NCBI GenBank assembly: GCA_038873195.1
Contig: JAVZEV010000001.1
Span: 214,490 to 278,489, forward strand
Direction: 5' to 3'
Origin: Candidatus Bathyarchaeia archaeon
GTDB taxonomy: Archaea; Thermoproteota; Bathyarchaeia; Bathyarchaeales; Bathycorpusculaceae
Length of the DNA stretch: 64,000 nucleotides
Positions 33,337-56,888 of the stretch are shown here, in pieces. The notes under the pieces are model-generated. The model ran no database searches. It saw nothing but the letters and a program-made list of their open reading frames with translations, and was not told the DNA's origin. The position numbers and the translations under genes were made by a program. Numbering within the stretch: the first letter of the stretch is position 1; each line of letters begins with the position of its first letter.

Positions 33337-33954
33337 TTAAAGTTTTGGCTTATATTTCTGTACGTATTCGTAGCCAAGTTTGAATGCTTTAATGTTCGTG
33401 TCTAAATGTTTGGTGGGCACAAGCTCTTTCAAAGCTTCTATGATGCTTTCGTCTTTTACTGGCATCTTTTTCGTGGCAGCTAAAGCGCCGATTAACACGA
33501 CGTTTTCTGTTAGGATGTTTCCGGCTTCTTTCGCTAGTTTTGCAGCTTCTACGATGATGATGTTTTTTGTGAAACTGCAAATTTTGTTGATTATTTCTTT
33601 CAAGCTTGGGTATTCCATCTTTTTCGCGGTGAGTTCGGTTGGCGTAATCCGTTCATCACTCATTATAACTGTTGTCTTTTCCGAAGCGAGATTCACACTG
33701 CGTAGAGTCTCTAAAGGCTCAAATCCTAAAAGTACATCTGCTTTTCCATCTAGAAACGTGGAAGCCAAAACGTTTTCTCCAATTCTCACGTTGGAAACTA
33801 CTGCTCCGCCTCTCTGCGCCATCCCGTGAATCTCGCTTACTCGAACATTCAACCCTTCTTTGAGAGCTGCTGTTCCAAGAATCTCCGCTGCTAGAAGTAT
33901 GCCTTGTCCGCCCACTCCAGTCAAAACAATGTTGAATTCCTTCATTTCCAACAC
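33337..33954 (-). CDS. iorB: Indolepyruvate ferredoxin oxidoreductase, beta subunit
   Basis: 205 residues, gamma-type domain of the 2-oxoacid:ferredoxin oxidoreductase family. The opening NIVLTGVGGQGILLAAEILG, then VRVSEIHGMAQRGGAVVSNV and ADVLLGFEPLETLR are the IorB landmarks. GTG 33954 or ATG 33945 starts it, 4 bp after the iorA stop. With IorA it oxidatively decarboxylates arylpyruvates from aromatic amino acids to aryl-acetyl-CoA, reducing ferredoxin. Located next to a tryptophanase-like gene. Confidence 0.96.
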   Translation of the reverse strand: MLEMKEFNIVLTGVGGQGILLAAEILGTAALKEGLNVRVSEIHGMAQRGGAVVSNVRIGENVLASTFLDGKADVLLGFEPLETLRSVNLASEKTTVIMSDERITPTELTAKKMEYPSLKEIINKICSFTKNIIIVEAAKLAKEAGNILTENVVLIGALAATKKMPVKDESIIEALKELVPTKHLDTNIKAFKLGYEYVQKYKPKL

Positions 33955-33958
33955 TTCT

Positions 33959-35842
33959 TTAACCTATCTCCTCACATTTTATAGCTTGGTATGGACAAAC
34001 CGAAGCGCATAACCCGCACCCAATACAAAGAGCCTCGTTAATGCCCGCTTTTCCATCTACCAAAACCAAAGCTGGACAACCCAACAATTTAATGCATGCC
34101 ATACAATTCGTGCATTCCTCGGTTATTTTGCAAACCATTATTTTTGCGCCCTTGCGTCTCCTATCTCTAACCACCATTAAGGCACAAGGAGAACGAAAAA
34201 CAACAACGGAAGGACCGGAATGTTGTAAGGCTTCCTTCAAAACTGCCGTTGCCTCTTTAACTTTGAATGGGTTAACAACTCTGACGTATTTTACGCCGCA
34301 TCCTTCAGCGACTTTTTCAATTAGCACTTTTTCTGTTGGAACGCCCATGCCTGTCACGCCGGTTCCTGGGTGTGGCTGATGTCCTGTCATCGCGGTTGTT
34401 TGGTTGTCTAAAACTGCTAAGGTTATTTTGTGGTTGTTGTAGACGGCGTTGATTAATCCTGGAATGGCTGCGTGGAAAAATGTTGAATCGCCAATAATTC
34501 CAATAGTGTCTTTTCCTGTCACTTTGTTTATGCCCTGCGCCATGCTCACGCTTGAGCCCATACACAAGAAGCCATCACCAATGCTTAGTGGCGGCGCAAA
34601 TCCTAAAGCGTAGCAGCCTATGTCGTTTGGATAAACTGCTTTGCCATCAGTGGCTTTCTTTATCACGTAGAATGAGGCTCTGTGAGGGCATCCAGCGCAT
34701 AAGATTGGCGGTCTACGCGGCAAATCCTTCAAAACTTCAGCATATTTCTTATCAATCTCTTCAAAGTTTATTGGCAATTTTCTTCTTGTTATCTTTGCTA
34801 AGCCAACCACTACTGTACGTGTAGAAAGTTCGCCGTCTCTTGGAAAATACGGCGTACTCATTTTCCCATAAATTTTCACGTTTGGAGCGTAATCCTTAGC
34901 TATGGCTTTAACTTGCATTTCCAGATAAGGCTCAAGCTCTTCAACAACAACGATTTTCTTGTGTTTCTTCAAGAAAGCTCCTATCAGCTTTTCTGGCAGT
35001 GGATGCGTCATGCCTAGTTTGAGGACGCTGGCGTCTAAATCTAACGCGTCTATAGCTTCAATGGCGTAGTTGAACGCTGCACTTGCAGAGATTACGCCAA
35101 GCTTGCCGCTTTTACTTTTGCGTATTATGGTGTTATATTGTAATGTTTCGCTGAGTTCCTTAGCCTTCTCCGCTTTCTTCAGTAGAACAGTATGCATTGG
35201 TCTGGAATTTGCTGGAACCAAATTCATGCGTTTTATGTCTCTGACAAATTCGCCTTTGAGGTTTGGCTTCGTAAGCTTGCCGTAAATTACTGGTCCACGT
35301 GTGTGACTTACACGAGTCATGGTTCTAAGCAAAACTGGAAGCTCTAATTTTTCTGAAATTTCAACCGCGGAAACTGTCATGTCTTTGGCTTCTTGAGCAT
35401 TTGAAGGCTCCAAACATGGAAGATTCGCAAGCAAAGCGTAAAAACGGTTATCTTGCTCGTTCTGGGAACTGTAACATTCTGGGTCGTCTGCCGTGACAAT
35501 TACGCATCCGCCTTTTACACCCATATACGCCAACGTCACAAGCGCGTCTGCAGCAACATTCAATCCTACATGCTTCATTGCAGAAAGCGACCGCACACCA
35601 CAGTTTGCAGTTGCCGCAGCAACTTCTACGGCAACCATCTCGTTAATTGAATACTCCATATAAACGCCCGCTTCAGCCGCAATTTCACTGATCGAATCCG
35701 CTATTTCAGACGCCGGCGTGCCAGGATAAGTGGTTACCACGCTTATGCCAGCTTCTAAGATTCCTCTGGCTATCGCTTCGTTGCCAAGCAAAAGCGCCCG
35801 TTTATTTGGCGCATCTTGCAATAGTAAACGTGAATCAGGCAA
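33959..35842 (-). CDS. iorA: Indolepyruvate ferredoxin oxidoreductase, alpha subunit
   Basis: 627 residues. N-terminal pyrimidine-binding half starts with LLGNEAIARGILEAGISVVT and YPGTPASEI; the C-terminal half has the thiamine diphosphate motif GDSTFFHAAIPGLINAVYN; the end is a two-cluster ferredoxin domain with CTNCMACIKLLGC and CIGCGLCASVCPYQAI. Start TTG 35842 with GGAG 8 nt upstream. The cluster-1 spacing (C-x2-C-x2-C-x4-C) is a little unusual, as is typical of IorA. Cotranscribed with iorB. Confidence 0.96.
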   Translation of the reverse strand: MPDSRLLLQDAPNKRALLLGNEAIARGILEAGISVVTTYPGTPASEIADSISEIAAEAGVYMEYSINEMVAVEVAAATANCGVRSLSAMKHVGLNVAADALVTLAYMGVKGGCVIVTADDPECYSSQNEQDNRFYALLANLPCLEPSNAQEAKDMTVSAVEISEKLELPVLLRTMTRVSHTRGPVIYGKLTKPNLKGEFVRDIKRMNLVPANSRPMHTVLLKKAEKAKELSETLQYNTIIRKSKSGKLGVISASAAFNYAIEAIDALDLDASVLKLGMTHPLPEKLIGAFLKKHKKIVVVEELEPYLEMQVKAIAKDYAPNVKIYGKMSTPYFPRDGELSTRTVVVGLAKITRRKLPINFEEIDKKYAEVLKDLPRRPPILCAGCPHRASFYVIKKATDGKAVYPNDIGCYALGFAPPLSIGDGFLCMGSSVSMAQGINKVTGKDTIGIIGDSTFFHAAIPGLINAVYNNHKITLAVLDNQTTAMTGHQPHPGTGVTGMGVPTEKVLIEKVAEGCGVKYVRVVNPFKVKEATAVLKEALQHSGPSVVVFRSPCALMVVRDRRRKGAKIMVCKITEECTNCMACIKLLGCPALVLVDGKAGINEALCIGCGLCASVCPYQAIKCEEIG

Positions 35843-35991
35843 ACATTTTCTCCTCAGCTCGTGTAGAAGTCGTTCATTCTTTTGGCTTCAAATATAACTT
35901 TTGGTGATTCAACGCGAAAAGCAATCTTGAACCGAAAGAATTATTAAAACGCGATTAGGATACACAGCTTTCATTCGTGAGGTTTGTCATC

Positions 35992-37437
35992 ATGTCCATA
36001 AAATTGTCTAATGGAAAAGAAATCCCGATTGAAATGCACAAGACGCGGATGGTGCAAAAAATTTCTTTGCCGCCAGTTGACCAGCGCCTCAAAGCCATAG
36101 AAGAGGCGGGCTACAACACTTTCCAGCTTAAGACTAAAGACGTGTTTCTCGACATGCTCACTGACAGTGGCGTAAACGCGATGAGTGACAACCAATACGC
36201 TGCCATGATGCGGGTTGACGACGCCTACGCAGGCAGCATGACCTTTTACGAGTTCGCAGACGCAGTAAAAGACGTTTTAGGATACAAATACGTGATGAAT
36301 GTTCACCAAGGAAGAGCCGCGGAACATTTAATCTCCAAAGTGTTCGCGAAACCCGGCGACGTGGTTCCGACAAACTATCATTTTACTACAACTAAGGTTC
36401 ACATTGAATTGACTGGTGGAGCCGCATGCTTAGAAATTTACTATGATGAAGCGTTGAAAACGGAAAGCACTAACCCGTTTAAGGGCAACATGGACCCACA
36501 AAAACTGAAAAACGTGATTAAAAAGTATGGAAAAGAAAAAGTAGCTTACGTGCGCATGGAAGCAACAACTAACCTTCTTGGCGGTCAACCATTCTCAATG
36601 CAGAATCTCAAGGAAATCAAACAAATCTGTAAGGAGCACGGCTTAATCCTCGTTTTAGACGGAAGCCTAATCAGCGAAAACGCCTATTTAATAAAGCAAC
36701 GCGAAAAAGGCTACGAAAACAAAACAGTCGCGGAAATAGTCAAAGAAATGTGCAGTTACGCTGATATTTTCTACATGAGTGGAAGGAAAAACACGTGCGT
36801 CAGAGGCGGCTGCATAGCAACAAACAATAAGGAACTGTTTGAAAAGTTGCAGCCTTGGCTTCCAGTTTACGAAGGCTTCTTCACTTACGGCGGAATGTCT
36901 CAAAGGGAAGTCGCCGCCATGGCTGTAGGAATGCGCGAGATGGTAGACTTAGAAATGGCTGGCTGTGCAATAGAACAAATAAAATACTTTGTAAATAGAC
37001 TGAAGGAAACCGGAATTCCAGTAGTTACACCTCCAGGCGGGTTGGCTTGCCACTTGGACGCAAAGAAGTTTTTGCCGCACATTCCTCAATCAGAGTATCC
37101 AGCTGGCGCGTTGACTGCTGCGCTTTACATTGTTTCGGGCATTCGGAGCATGGAAAGAGGCACAATTTCGATGGAAAGAGACAAGGATGGAAAGGAAGTC
37201 TTCGCTGATTTGGAATTGACGAGGCTTGCGCTTCCAAGAAGAGTCTACACCATATCACACATTGAATACGCGGTGGATAGGATAAACTGGCTTTATAAGC
37301 ATAGAAACTTAGTGAAAGGCTTAAAATTCGTTTTTGAACCACCAGTGTTGCGTTTCTTCCTTGGAAAACTAGAAGCTTTAGACAACTGGGGAAGAAACTT
37401 AGCTGAAGTATGCAAAAAAGAAATAGGCGACCACTAA
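35992..37437 (+). CDS. Beta-eliminating lyase of the tryptophanase/tyrosine phenol-lyase family
   Basis: About 481 residues from ATG 35992 (GTGAGG 9-14 nt upstream). PLP enzyme of fold type I: MSDNQYAAMMRVDDAYAGSM substrate region, VMNVHQGRAAEHLISKVF, LVLDGSLISENAYL (cofactor aspartate) and FYMSGRKNTCVRGGCIATN with the Schiff-base lysine. Converts tryptophan or tyrosine to indole or phenol plus pyruvate and ammonia; which one cannot be settled by eye. Divergent from iorAB (about 150 bp), so both aromatic amino-acid routes may be regulated together. Confidence 0.9.
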   Translation: MSIKLSNGKEIPIEMHKTRMVQKISLPPVDQRLKAIEEAGYNTFQLKTKDVFLDMLTDSGVNAMSDNQYAAMMRVDDAYAGSMTFYEFADAVKDVLGYKYVMNVHQGRAAEHLISKVFAKPGDVVPTNYHFTTTKVHIELTGGAACLEIYYDEALKTESTNPFKGNMDPQKLKNVIKKYGKEKVAYVRMEATTNLLGGQPFSMQNLKEIKQICKEHGLILVLDGSLISENAYLIKQREKGYENKTVAEIVKEMCSYADIFYMSGRKNTCVRGGCIATNNKELFEKLQPWLPVYEGFFTYGGMSQREVAAMAVGMREMVDLEMAGCAIEQIKYFVNRLKETGIPVVTPPGGLACHLDAKKFLPHIPQSEYPAGALTAALYIVSGIRSMERGTISMERDKDGKEVFADLELTRLALPRRVYTISHIEYAVDRINWLYKHRNLVKGLKFVFEPPVLRFFLGKLEALDNWGRNLAEVCKKEIGDH

Positions 37438-52172: not shown

Positions 52173-53516
52173 TTATTTTTTGTGCAATTTTTGTGCAGCG
52201 ATGAATGTTAAACCCTTTTTGGTTAGGGCCTTAGCCGTTCGGTTCACAGCATCGTGCTTGTCCAAATAGTTGCGAAGCAGTTTTGGCATCAACCCTTTTT
52301 CAAGAATATCCTTTTTTGGAATGAAATAGTCCAAAATGTCTGACGGGTGGTCTCTGGTCTTCTCGATTTCTGGGTCTCCGCCTTCATGTTTGGCACTGAT
52401 GTTTTTGACGTGGTCTGCCAACTCCACTAACTCATTAAGTCGGTCGTATGGTTGCCTAACAATGCTCTTGTAGGCTTCGGTTATGTGGTGTTCGATGCGA
52501 ACAATGTCCTCGAAATCGAAGGCTTTTCGAACATAAGCTGAAAGCTCAATTGTCTCGTTGTTGACAGAGTTTGAAAGGTTAAAACCAATAAGCGGTGTTG
52601 TGCCATCATTTCGACTCAGAAGCTTCGCAGTTAACAGAGTCCACAAAATCGAATAAGGATTATCGTTGCCTAAAAACACGGAAATCTTGAATTCAACGTC
52701 AACGCCAAGTTTGTGCAGCAAATACCCCAAAAGAACAGTACCCGAATTCGTGTTCAAAACTTGCTGCACACCATACTCAGTATAATAGTAAAGCAGTTCG
52801 TCAACCCACTTCAAAGCGTACTCATTTGGAGCGCCAACACCACCAAAATAACCCGTAATAGTTTCCGGTCCGCTCAAGTGAACATTTACTGGTTTGCCGT
52901 CTGGCCCTGGCATGGTTCCTTTTGTGTCAAGTGTTTCCACGAATGAAGCTCCTATGATTTGCATTGCCGCCATAGTTGCGAGCACGTCATCATCTTCCAC
53001 TTGCTCTTTCATGTTACGAACGCGTATGTATCTGCCAGGCATGAGGTCTTGCTGTTTTATTGCGTATTTTGCCTCTTCAATCAGCCATGGGAAAAAGTTG
53101 AAAGCACTAATTTCTAAAGTCACCGCGAAAGAATCGTCAAACTTCGTTGAATCCACTTTCTTTCCCAAAATTTTTCTTCTATACTCGGGAATGCTTATGA
53201 AGGAGTTTTTATCTCGCTGCTTAATCAGCCATTCAAGGTCCTTAACAAAAGGCGACTTCTTTTTCTCCAGACGCCCCATTAGGTTTTCAAGCTTACGGGA
53301 CTCCTTAGCCTTACGGTTAATCTCCTCCACACCGCCATATTTTTCAACAATCTTAAACAGACCATTCGTAAGGGGATTATCCTTTCTAAGTAAGAACTCG
53401 TTAATTTCTTTCAAATTTTCCTCGTTTATTCGCAATCTTTCCCGAATCTTATCCAAAATAGACACTTCCGAACAATCGTTAGTCTTCAGAGGCTCTCGTA
53501 ATTTAAGCATTTTCAC
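52173..53516 (-). CDS. Large uncharacterised enzyme-like protein
   Basis: 447 residues, soluble, no signal or membrane segment. The middle (VNVHLSGPETITGYFGGVGA, LLYYYTEYGVQQVLNTNSGT, VDVEFKISVFLGNDNPYSIL, GTTPLIGFNLSNSVNNETIE) reads like beta-alpha units of a barrel, with acidic and asparagine residues well placed for catalysis, and the last 90 residues are helical with DHPSDILDYFIPKKDILEKG. Archaeal-type PEP carboxylase was considered because of size, but its opening signature is absent. I do not recognise the family. It overlaps the upstream surface-protein gene by 14 bp. Confidence 0.75.
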   Translation of the reverse strand: MKMLKLREPLKTNDCSEVSILDKIRERLRINEENLKEINEFLLRKDNPLTNGLFKIVEKYGGVEEINRKAKESRKLENLMGRLEKKKSPFVKDLEWLIKQRDKNSFISIPEYRRKILGKKVDSTKFDDSFAVTLEISAFNFFPWLIEEAKYAIKQQDLMPGRYIRVRNMKEQVEDDDVLATMAAMQIIGASFVETLDTKGTMPGPDGKPVNVHLSGPETITGYFGGVGAPNEYALKWVDELLYYYTEYGVQQVLNTNSGTVLLGYLLHKLGVDVEFKISVFLGNDNPYSILWTLLTAKLLSRNDGTTPLIGFNLSNSVNNETIELSAYVRKAFDFEDIVRIEHHITEAYKSIVRQPYDRLNELVELADHVKNISAKHEGGDPEIEKTRDHPSDILDYFIPKKDILEKGLMPKLLRNYLDKHDAVNRTAKALTKKGLTFIAAQKLHKK

Positions 53517-54598: not shown

Positions 54599-56077
54599 AT
54601 GTTTAAACCCGAAGGAATCCTACCTGCTTTAGTCACACCATTCACGGATGATGGAACAGCGGTTGATGAAGAAAGACTGCGCGCTTTAGTTAACCACTGC
54701 ATAGAATTAGGCGTTCATGGGGTCGTCCCATGCGGCACCACAGGCGAATTTGTCAACATGACAACAGAAGAGAAAAAACAAGTCATAAAAACCGTCGTCG
54801 ACGAAGTCAACGGCAAGGTCAAAGTTGTTGCTGGAACAGGCGCAAGCGGAACAGACAAAGCTTTAGAAATGACAAAATACGCGAAAGATGTGGGCGCCGA
54901 CGCTGTTTTAATCGTAACCCCTTTCTATTTGAAGCCTGCAGATCGTGGAATCTATGAACATTACGATACAATAGCAAGCAAAGCTGACATGCCAATAATT
55001 CTCTACAATATTCCACAATGCACAGGCTTACCGTTGCCTTGGCAAATGGTTGAAGACTTGGCTCAAATCCCAAACATAGTAGGCGTAAAAGACAGCAGCG
55101 GACAACTAAGCTTCATATTGGCAGTGCTGGAAAAAGTCAGAGACAAAATAAACGTCTTATGCGGACACGACGAAGTAGTTGTGGCAGCATTAGCCGCAGG
55201 ATGCAGTGGAGCGATTCTTGCAAGCGCAAACGTGATACCTGACATTTGGGTGCAAGTCTACAATCACATTAGAAACGGCGAGTTGCAAAAAGCCCGCGAA
55301 CTCCAATATAAAGTGCAGAAAATAGCCAGAATAATCGCTGGAAGCGGAGCAGTGGGTACAAAAGAAGCGTTAAACATGATGAAAATCAAAGTAGGACCAG
55401 TCCGAAAGCCATTAAGCGTAGGCGGCGAGTTAACCTACGAAGCAAGAGAAGAATTACGCTTAGATTTAGAAAAAATAGGAAAAATAAAGCCTAAAGCAGT
55501 AACGTTCGAAGTCGCCGAAAAACCAATAGAACAACGCTTCATGGCAGTAAACATAACGCCAGACGTAATAAAAGACTTCAAACTACGCGTCGGTGAAGCC
55601 TTAGCAGGAGGAGGCGCAGAAGTAGCCCACATAGACCTTATCATCGGAAAAAGCGACGGCCCAGTTGGCGAAGCTTTTGCAAAGGCTAAAGCAGCACCAA
55701 CACCAGGACATGAGCCACTATTAGCCATTTTGGAGCCAAATCTCTCCGTGAAACCGGTGACGCTTATCGTTCCAACAGTTACCATTACAAGCATGCGTCA
55801 AGCGAGCATGGTTTACGGTCCAGCTCAAACAGCAGTTGCTAAGGCAGTGATTGACAGTGTCGCAGATGGAACTATTCCAAAAGAAGCAGTTGACGACTTG
55901 ATTATCATCGCGAACGTGTTTGTGCATCCCACAGCCGTTGACAGACAAAGAGTTTACATAAACAATTACAAAGCCATGCGCCACGCAATCCGCAAAGCGA
56001 TAGAAGGCAGACCCAACATTGACGAATTAATAGAGAACAAAGACCGCTCGAAACACCCATTCAAATACACACCATAG
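54599..56077 (+). CDS. Fusion of DapA-superfamily aldolase and formaldehyde-activating enzyme (Fae)
   Basis: 492 residues, two enzymes in one chain. Residues 1-295 are a DapA/N-acetylneuraminate-lyase barrel: VPCGTTGEF (44-51), YNIP with Tyr136, and the Schiff-base Lys164 in GVKDSSG. The arginine that binds the semialdehyde carboxylate in true dihydrodipicolinate synthases (SRTG) is replaced here by Cys (QCTG), so lysine synthesis is unlikely. From about 318 to 492 comes a whole Fae: VGEALAGGGAEVAHIDLIIG with catalytic His344, GHEPLLAILEPNLSVKP, YGPAQTAVAKAVIDSVADG and the end KHPFKYTP. Fae condenses formaldehyde with tetrahydromethanopterin. Usual fusions are Fae-Hps; this pairing implies an aldolase that makes or uses formaldehyde, such as 4-hydroxy-2-oxobutanoate to pyruvate plus formaldehyde. 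The trmI start is 10 bp later. Confidence 0.93.
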   Translation: MFKPEGILPALVTPFTDDGTAVDEERLRALVNHCIELGVHGVVPCGTTGEFVNMTTEEKKQVIKTVVDEVNGKVKVVAGTGASGTDKALEMTKYAKDVGADAVLIVTPFYLKPADRGIYEHYDTIASKADMPIILYNIPQCTGLPLPWQMVEDLAQIPNIVGVKDSSGQLSFILAVLEKVRDKINVLCGHDEVVVAALAAGCSGAILASANVIPDIWVQVYNHIRNGELQKARELQYKVQKIARIIAGSGAVGTKEALNMMKIKVGPVRKPLSVGGELTYEAREELRLDLEKIGKIKPKAVTFEVAEKPIEQRFMAVNITPDVIKDFKLRVGEALAGGGAEVAHIDLIIGKSDGPVGEAFAKAKAAPTPGHEPLLAILEPNLSVKPVTLIVPTVTITSMRQASMVYGPAQTAVAKAVIDSVADGTIPKEAVDDLIIIANVFVHPTAVDRQRVYINNYKAMRHAIRKAIEGRPNIDELIENKDRSKHPFKYTP

Positions 56078-56087
56078 TGAATGAAAA

Positions 56088-56888
56088 TTGACAAAACAGA
56101 AAATACGCGAAGGCGACTACATACTCCTCTACTTAAACCAACGAAAAACTTACATGATTAAAGTTGAAGCTGGCAAAACTTTCCACACGCACAAGGGCTT
56201 CATAAAATTTGACGACTTAATCGGCAAAGAATACGGCACGACAATTATCAGCAGTTTGGGCATTGAATTCATAGTGTTGAAGCCTCTTCTCCGCGATTTC
56301 ATAATGAAGTCAGCTAGGCAAACACAGATAACCTATCCGAAAGACATTGCCTTAATAGTAATGTTCAGCGGGATAGGGCCTGGAAGCCGTGTCGTAGAAG
56401 CTGGAACTGGCACTGGTGCATTAACAACAGCCCTAGCGCATTATGTTAAGCCAGAAGGCAAAGTTTACAGCTACGAAATCCGCGAAGAATTCATAAAAAC
56501 TGCAGAGAAAAACCTAACACGCGCTGGTTTAATCGACTTTGTGGAATTAAAAAACAAAGATGTAACCGCTGGCATAGACGAAAACGATGTAGACACTTTG
56601 ATTCTTGATTTAGCCACTCCATGGCTTGTTATTCCCCATGCGTATAACGCACTGAAACCTTGTGGAACACTAGTCTCGTTCAGCCCAACAATTGACCAAG
56701 TAGTCAAAACCGCTGAAGCCTTAAAGGAAAATTACTTCGTAGACACAGAAACCATAGAATGCCTAATGCGGGGAATGCAGACTGAAAGGGGTAAAACAAG
56801 ACCGCAAACTCTGATGACAGCGCACACGGGATACATAACATTCGCCAGAAAAATAATTCGCCATTTTGACACTTCAACAAAAGAATAA
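56088..56888 (+). CDS. trmI: tRNA (adenine-N1)-methyltransferase, TrmI type
   Basis: 266 residues. An N-terminal small beta domain (KIREGDYILLYLNQRKTYMI) precedes the SAM-binding domain with VVEAGTGTGALTTALAHYV, VYSYEIREEFIKTAEKNLTR, and LDLATPWLVIPHAYNALKPC (catalytic/substrate loop). Methylates A57/A58 in the T loop of archaeal tRNAs. Start TTG 56088, 10 bp after the DapA-Fae stop, so the two may share a transcript although functionally unrelated. Confidence 0.94.
   Translation: MTKQKIREGDYILLYLNQRKTYMIKVEAGKTFHTHKGFIKFDDLIGKEYGTTIISSLGIEFIVLKPLLRDFIMKSARQTQITYPKDIALIVMFSGIGPGSRVVEAGTGTGALTTALAHYVKPEGKVYSYEIREEFIKTAEKNLTRAGLIDFVELKNKDVTAGIDENDVDTLILDLATPWLVIPHAYNALKPCGTLVSFSPTIDQVVKTAEALKENYFVDTETIECLMRGMQTERGKTRPQTLMTAHTGYITFARKIIRHFDTSTKE

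Follow-up and report, generated by a model that had tools for sequence, protein, structure and literature searches.

The window, the whole 64,000-nucleotide stretch of DNA that was analyzed, comes from a Bathyarchaeia genome (G000) and carries a gene encoding two enzymes in one chain, an aldolase of the DapA superfamily followed by a formaldehyde-activating enzyme (Fae). The fusion gene, the residues in it that bear on function, and the genes on either side are as follows (positions are those of the window).

52173..53516, minus strand: conserved divergent neighbor, 447 amino acids as called, adjoining the fusion in most loci where the flank is long enough
54599..56077, plus strand: fusion gene, DapA-superfamily aldolase plus Fae, 492 amino acids, single frame with Pfam DHDPS and Fae domains, kept in 47 of 163 class genomes
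54608..55471, plus strand: aldolase domain, residues 4 to 291, predicted TIM barrel (Pfam, AlphaFold model, fold and sequence matches)
55004..55006, plus strand: Tyr136, catalytic tyrosine (49/49 fusion proteins)
55019..55021, plus strand: Cys141, in place of the carboxylate-binding Arg of DHDPS (Cys, Val, Ala, or Leu in fusions)
55088..55090, plus strand: Lys164, Schiff-base lysine (49/49 fusion proteins)
55502..55579, plus strand: linker, residues 302 to 327, low confidence (pLDDT < 50) and poorly conserved
55589..56062, plus strand: Fae domain, residues 331 to 488 (Pfam Fae, TIGR03126 above cutoff, aligned to 1y5y)
55628..55630, plus strand: His344, equivalent of Fae His17 (49/49 fusion proteins)
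55775..55777, plus strand: Thr393, the same in all fusions, where canonical Fae has Lys66 (Fae-Hps and Methylobacterium extorquens Fae also have Lys)
56088..56888, plus strand: tRNA methyltransferase (GCD14/TrmI-like), just downstream of the fusion and its neighbor in about half of the loci

The fusion gene is one uninterrupted frame opening with ATG, and Tyr136 (in a YNIP motif), Lys164, the QCTG motif, and His344 all lie where the first-pass annotation of the sequence had placed them. Pfam assigned DHDPS to residues 4 to 291 (1.7e-82) and Fae to residues 331 to 488 (1.5e-63) and found no Hps (OMP decarboxylase-family) domain in the protein; the NCBIfam models dapA and one_C_fae each scored above their cutoffs. 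The AlphaFold model (mean pLDDT, 84.8) consists of a TIM barrel, a disordered linker, and a Fae fold. A sequencing or assembly join had been suspected near base 55500, but that position is a real linker, and the architecture recurs in many independently assembled Bathyarchaeia metagenome-assembled genomes at 51 to 97% identity, which rules out an assembly artifact as the source of the fusion. The dN/dS ratio between relatives is about 0.02 to 0.05 in the aldolase half and the Fae half alike, and the protein is under strong purifying selection in both domains. The usual assembly is a tetramer for DapA proteins and a pentamer for Fae. Because the linker is predicted to be disordered, a fixed tunnel linking the active sites lacks support, as does the earlier suggestion that the chain operates without free formaldehyde.

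Among 163 Bathyarchaeia genomes that were each at least 85% complete, full-length fusions were found in 47, representing 37 of 78 genera; two of these fusions ran off the end of a contig and one had a premature stop. Approximately 49 Bathyarchaeia contigs carried the fusion. Another genome of the same genus as the window's has it at 97% identity, and in a phylum-level draw the full-length fusions among the matches listed were all inside the class. Scanning the genomes of named species yielded 49 loci at 51 to 90% identity, nearly all of them fusions and all but one archaeal (Bathyarchaeota, one member of the Thermoproteota, and one uncultured archaeon); the single nonarchaeal locus was a DapA homolog without Fae from the Desulfobacterales. 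The joined architecture is thus widespread and is present in related genomes. One genome contained two tandem fusion genes (L172; G467:C91:30054-32967). The first-pass annotation knew of no description of the fusion, and full-text literature searches, which covered main texts and may have passed over an unreported listing, found no mention of Fae with a DapA-superfamily aldolase. Nor was the fusion mentioned in the main text of a survey of archaeal fusions (PMC11237513). The joining of Fae to the Hps aldolase is already known, whereas no case of its joining to a DapA-superfamily aldolase turned up in the literature searched.

The N-terminal half has the hallmarks of the DapA superfamily of class I pyruvate aldolases, namely, the DHDPS fold, the Schiff-base lysine, the tyrosine, and a GTTGE motif. 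Its closest solved sequences and folds are those of DHDPS (2yxg), and Foldseek matched this half to DHDPS enzymes with target-normalized TM-scores of at least 0.9; human 4-hydroxy-2-oxoglutarate aldolase (3s5n/3s5o) was within the first 50 Foldseek matches and among the best fold matches. Thr48, Glu50, Tyr110, Tyr136, and Lys164 are invariant across 49 distinct fusion sequences, and, judged by catalytic residues, the aldolase and Fae active sites are both intact in all 49 proteins. Position 141 never holds the Arg of DHDPS in any of them, whereas the most similar stand-alone homologs checked keep the Arg in a YNNPGRTG or YNNPDRTG motif. The replacement of this carboxylate-binding Arg by small residues in all fusions fits a small uncharged aldehyde as the acceptor. 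A search of genome G000 with the Asd family (PF02774) gave no match, and aspartate semialdehyde is therefore not the acceptor. Because the Arg is replaced and the genome has no Asd, the fusion is not a lysine pathway enzyme here, in agreement with the first-pass view that a role in lysine synthesis was unlikely.

The C-terminal half is a member of the Fae family, with a Fae domain that includes the catalytic His17 equivalent, and the equivalents of Asp19 and Gln83 are also retained. Asp19, Leu48, Lys66, Thr68, and Gln83 are presumably the residues of Fae that contact its substrates (positions according to UniProt); the window's fusion protein has the equivalents of Asp19, Leu48, Thr68, and Gln83, but Lys66 is replaced by Thr in all fusions. 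Compared with M. extorquens Fae and Bathyarchaeial Fae-Hps, all or nearly all fusions are changed at five positions (A363, E372, L378, T393, and H462). A check for hps elsewhere, which had been recommended, located a separate Fae-Hps gene in the same genome (L003:1219-2688; 489 amino acids), whose product is extended at the N terminus by about 95 residues, helix-turn-helix-like by eye.

Across loci, fusion neighborhoods contained no conserved metabolic operon apart from one uncharacterized gene (52173-53516), which has no Pfam or NCBIfam family match. Where there was enough flank and the fusion was at least 70% identical, most loci had this gene beside the fusion, usually in divergent orientation, with 67 to 83% identity between neighbors; at a distant locus (L074), it is directly downstream of the fusion in the same direction. 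Some relatives have stop codons upstream of about residue 18, which suggests that its true start is further in than called. The predicted fold, from a model of limited confidence, is TIM-barrel-like with a helical N-terminal domain, and a structure search gave nothing beyond generic TIM-barrel matches of low TM-score. The protein, as conserved as the fusion, is a possible new enzyme family. The tRNA methyltransferase on the other side is probably not part of the fusion's function. In one genome (G064; locus L079), three frameshifts break the fusion and one breaks the neighbor, with the flanking genes intact; this genome carries asd, hom, thrB, and thrC. In another (G461), which has homoserine dehydrogenase, the fusion is interrupted by a premature TGA. 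Both of the broken fusion genes that were seen are thus in genomes with homoserine dehydrogenase, although sequencing errors may be an alternative cause of either break.

The fusion and homoserine dehydrogenase are mutually exclusive with few exceptions. The dehydrogenase was present in 4 of 47 fusion genomes compared to 96 of 116 others; at the class level, 4 of the 163 genomes had both, 43 had the fusion alone, 96 had the dehydrogenase alone, and 20 had neither (Fisher P values of 2e-19 by genome and 4e-9 by genus, which take no account of shared ancestry, a factor that inflates the association). Switches between the two were seen within families f1, f4, f8, and f17. In family f4, genus g37 has the fusion without the dehydrogenase and genus g38 has the reverse; in family f1, the dehydrogenase is missing from 21 of 23 fusion genomes and present in 59 of the 68 genomes lacking a full-length fusion. 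An intact fusion together with homoserine dehydrogenase occurred in G045, G048, and G499, with listed contamination of 8% for G045 and 5% for G499. Asd is missing from 21 of 23 fusion genomes in family f1, and canonical ThrB and ThrC are, with few exceptions, missing as well, which leaves the use of homoserine there unexplained. The missing Asd, homoserine dehydrogenase, ThrB, and ThrC can be read in two ways: either the fusion supplies homoserine (or a later product) or these organisms are auxotrophs in which the enzyme is catabolic.

A ThrC-like pyridoxal phosphate protein (L119:9659-10768, minus strand) was found in all fusion genomes of family f1. Its best solved matches are threonine synthases, yet the NSxNPxR motif, which we take to bind phosphohomoserine in ThrC, has been replaced, and a different substrate is therefore probable. 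The protein is missing from several fusion families, and at the class level its distribution matches that of the fusion only partly; together with the loss of the motif, this makes it an unconvincing candidate for the missing threonine synthase. Replacement of SHMT by the fusion was ruled out, as SHMT is present with and without it. In the window, positions 33337-37437 hold an indolepyruvate:ferredoxin oxidoreductase alpha gene and a beta-like gene, with a tryptophanase-like gene nearby by eye; these genes point to amino acid fermentation, which is compatible with auxotrophy, and amino acid fermentation genes occur both in the window and in the sampled genome regions.

We tentatively favor a two-headed enzyme that would catalyze pyruvate + CH2=H4MPT <-> 4-hydroxy-2-oxobutanoate (HOB) + H4MPT, most likely toward HOB, in a homoserine branch with the neighbor as partner. 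The N-terminal class I (Schiff-base) aldolase would interconvert formaldehyde plus pyruvate and HOB, an activity that we infer from the fusion, the active site, and the gene content pattern, and the Fae domain would exchange formaldehyde with methylene-tetrahydromethanopterin; the net hydroxymethyl transfer would be analogous to that of Fae-Hps. In the cell, an aminotransferase would then convert HOB to homoserine, the HOB route would stand in for Asd plus homoserine dehydrogenase, and the uncharacterized neighbor would be the probable second enzyme of the route. The standard free energy for the reaction of H4MPT with formaldehyde is near -20 kJ/mol. At this value, the coupled reaction is close to reversible, and concentrations therefore decide its direction. 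Synthesis is favored, with modest confidence, because of the homoserine dehydrogenase exclusion and the joint decay of fusion and neighbor; against it stand the loss of ThrB and ThrC, the Lys66-to-Thr change in Fae, and possible auxotrophy with catabolic use. A pyruvate aldolase has been reported to form 2-keto-4-hydroxybutyrate (HOB) from pyruvate and formaldehyde in vitro (K, ~250 M-1), feeding homoserine and threonine (PMC3439479), and these steps recur in an engineered synthetic homoserine cycle, where the aldolase is an unrelated one (PMC8879981). The formaldehyde and HOB chemistry put forward in the first-pass annotation is accordingly sound, but the direction given there, cleavage of an amino-acid-derived oxoacid, fares less well, since the homoserine dehydrogenase exclusion is at least as suggestive of synthesis. 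The broader proposal, that the fusion and an orphan TIM-barrel-like partner form a natural homoserine branch pathway from pyruvate and methanopterin-bound C1 via HOB that replaces the aspartate-semialdehyde/homoserine dehydrogenase route in much of the Bathyarchaeia, is somewhat less probable than the explanation favored here.

The reverse reaction comes close behind on the strength of the missing ThrB and ThrC and the fermentative gene content, though it too is on balance rather unlikely: scavenged amino or sugar acids would yield HOB or a similar 4-hydroxy-2-oxoacid, the aldolase would split this into pyruvate and formaldehyde, Fae would pass the latter to the methanopterin C1 pathway, and the genomes would be those of auxotrophic peptide fermenters. 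The joint loss of Asd, homoserine dehydrogenase, ThrB, and ThrC in family f1 fusion genomes and the indolepyruvate:ferredoxin oxidoreductase and other fermentation genes agree with cleavage, which was also the direction first proposed for this gene, and the vertebrate HOB aldolase activity is catabolic (Lane et al. 1971, as cited in PMC3439479). However, HOB is uncommon as a catabolite, and regaining homoserine and threonine genes gives no obvious reason to drop a catabolic enzyme, yet both fusion and neighbor are broken in G064. A little less probable again is another aldehyde substrate (e.g., glyceraldehyde, glycolaldehyde, or glyoxylate, as in KDG and 4-hydroxy-2-oxoglutarate aldolases), with Fae as a scavenger or with a shifted substrate or an assembly role. 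Acceptors are many across the DapA superfamily, 4-hydroxy-2-oxoglutarate aldolase is among the closest fold matches, and Lys66, kept in the same genome's Fae-Hps, has become Thr alongside four more fusion-specific changes; but the His17, Asp19, and Gln83 equivalents persist, selection on the Fae half is strong, and, with Fae as the fusion partner, formaldehyde is the metabolite that the two domains would most naturally share.

The remaining two possibilities assign the aldolase to known biosynthetic pathways. Formation of ketopantoate from 2-oxoisovalerate and a C1 unit, in place of PanB in coenzyme A synthesis, would suit a genome without PanB that has pantoate-kinase-like and CoaD-like genes by eye (L132). 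It is nevertheless very improbable: PanB does not track the fusion, being missing from nearly all family f1 genomes regardless of fusion and present in five fusion genomes. Least probable of all is an ordinary lysine pathway DHDPS with Fae as a passenger domain; the protein scores above the NCBIfam dapA cutoff, but the Arg is missing in all fusions, and 21 of 23 family f1 fusion genomes have no Asd and hence no aspartate semialdehyde.

Like the archaeal Fae-Hps, the fusion joins Fae to a formaldehyde-handling aldolase in one chain; in contrast to it, the partner is an N-terminal DapA-superfamily Schiff-base aldolase instead of Hps, Fae is C-terminal, and Lys66 is replaced by Thr. With DapA, it shares the fold, GTTGE, the Tyr, and the Schiff-base Lys but not the Arg for aspartate semialdehyde or a genome with Asd, and it has Fae attached. 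4-Hydroxy-2-oxoglutarate aldolase (HOGA, with the HOB aldolase activity of vertebrates) is also a DapA-superfamily pyruvate aldolase without the DHDPS Arg (about 31% identity by structure alignment), but it has no Fae and its physiological acceptor is glyoxylate. The synthetic homoserine cycle (HOB aldolase plus HOB aminotransferase in Escherichia coli) shares the proposed chemistry of pyruvate + formaldehyde -> HOB -> homoserine but is engineered, using an unrelated class II aldolase (RhmA/YfaU) without Fae coupling. As fusion genomes nearly always lack homoserine dehydrogenase, the fusion may, judging from sequence, represent a naturally occurring form of a route from formaldehyde to amino acids that is otherwise known only from laboratory designs.

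The Bathyarchaeia are an uncultured class of archaea that is abundant worldwide, and in them the fusion joins a pyruvate aldolase and an enzyme that carries formaldehyde in a single chain; annotation pipelines would label the protein DapA. If HOB is made, the enzyme would represent the natural equivalent of a one-carbon assimilation step known from design and would account for how many Bathyarchaeia cope without homoserine dehydrogenase; if HOB is cleaved, it would be a new entry for amino acid carbon into the methanopterin pathway. In either direction, two conserved proteins, one of them without a known family, acquire a function that can be tested.
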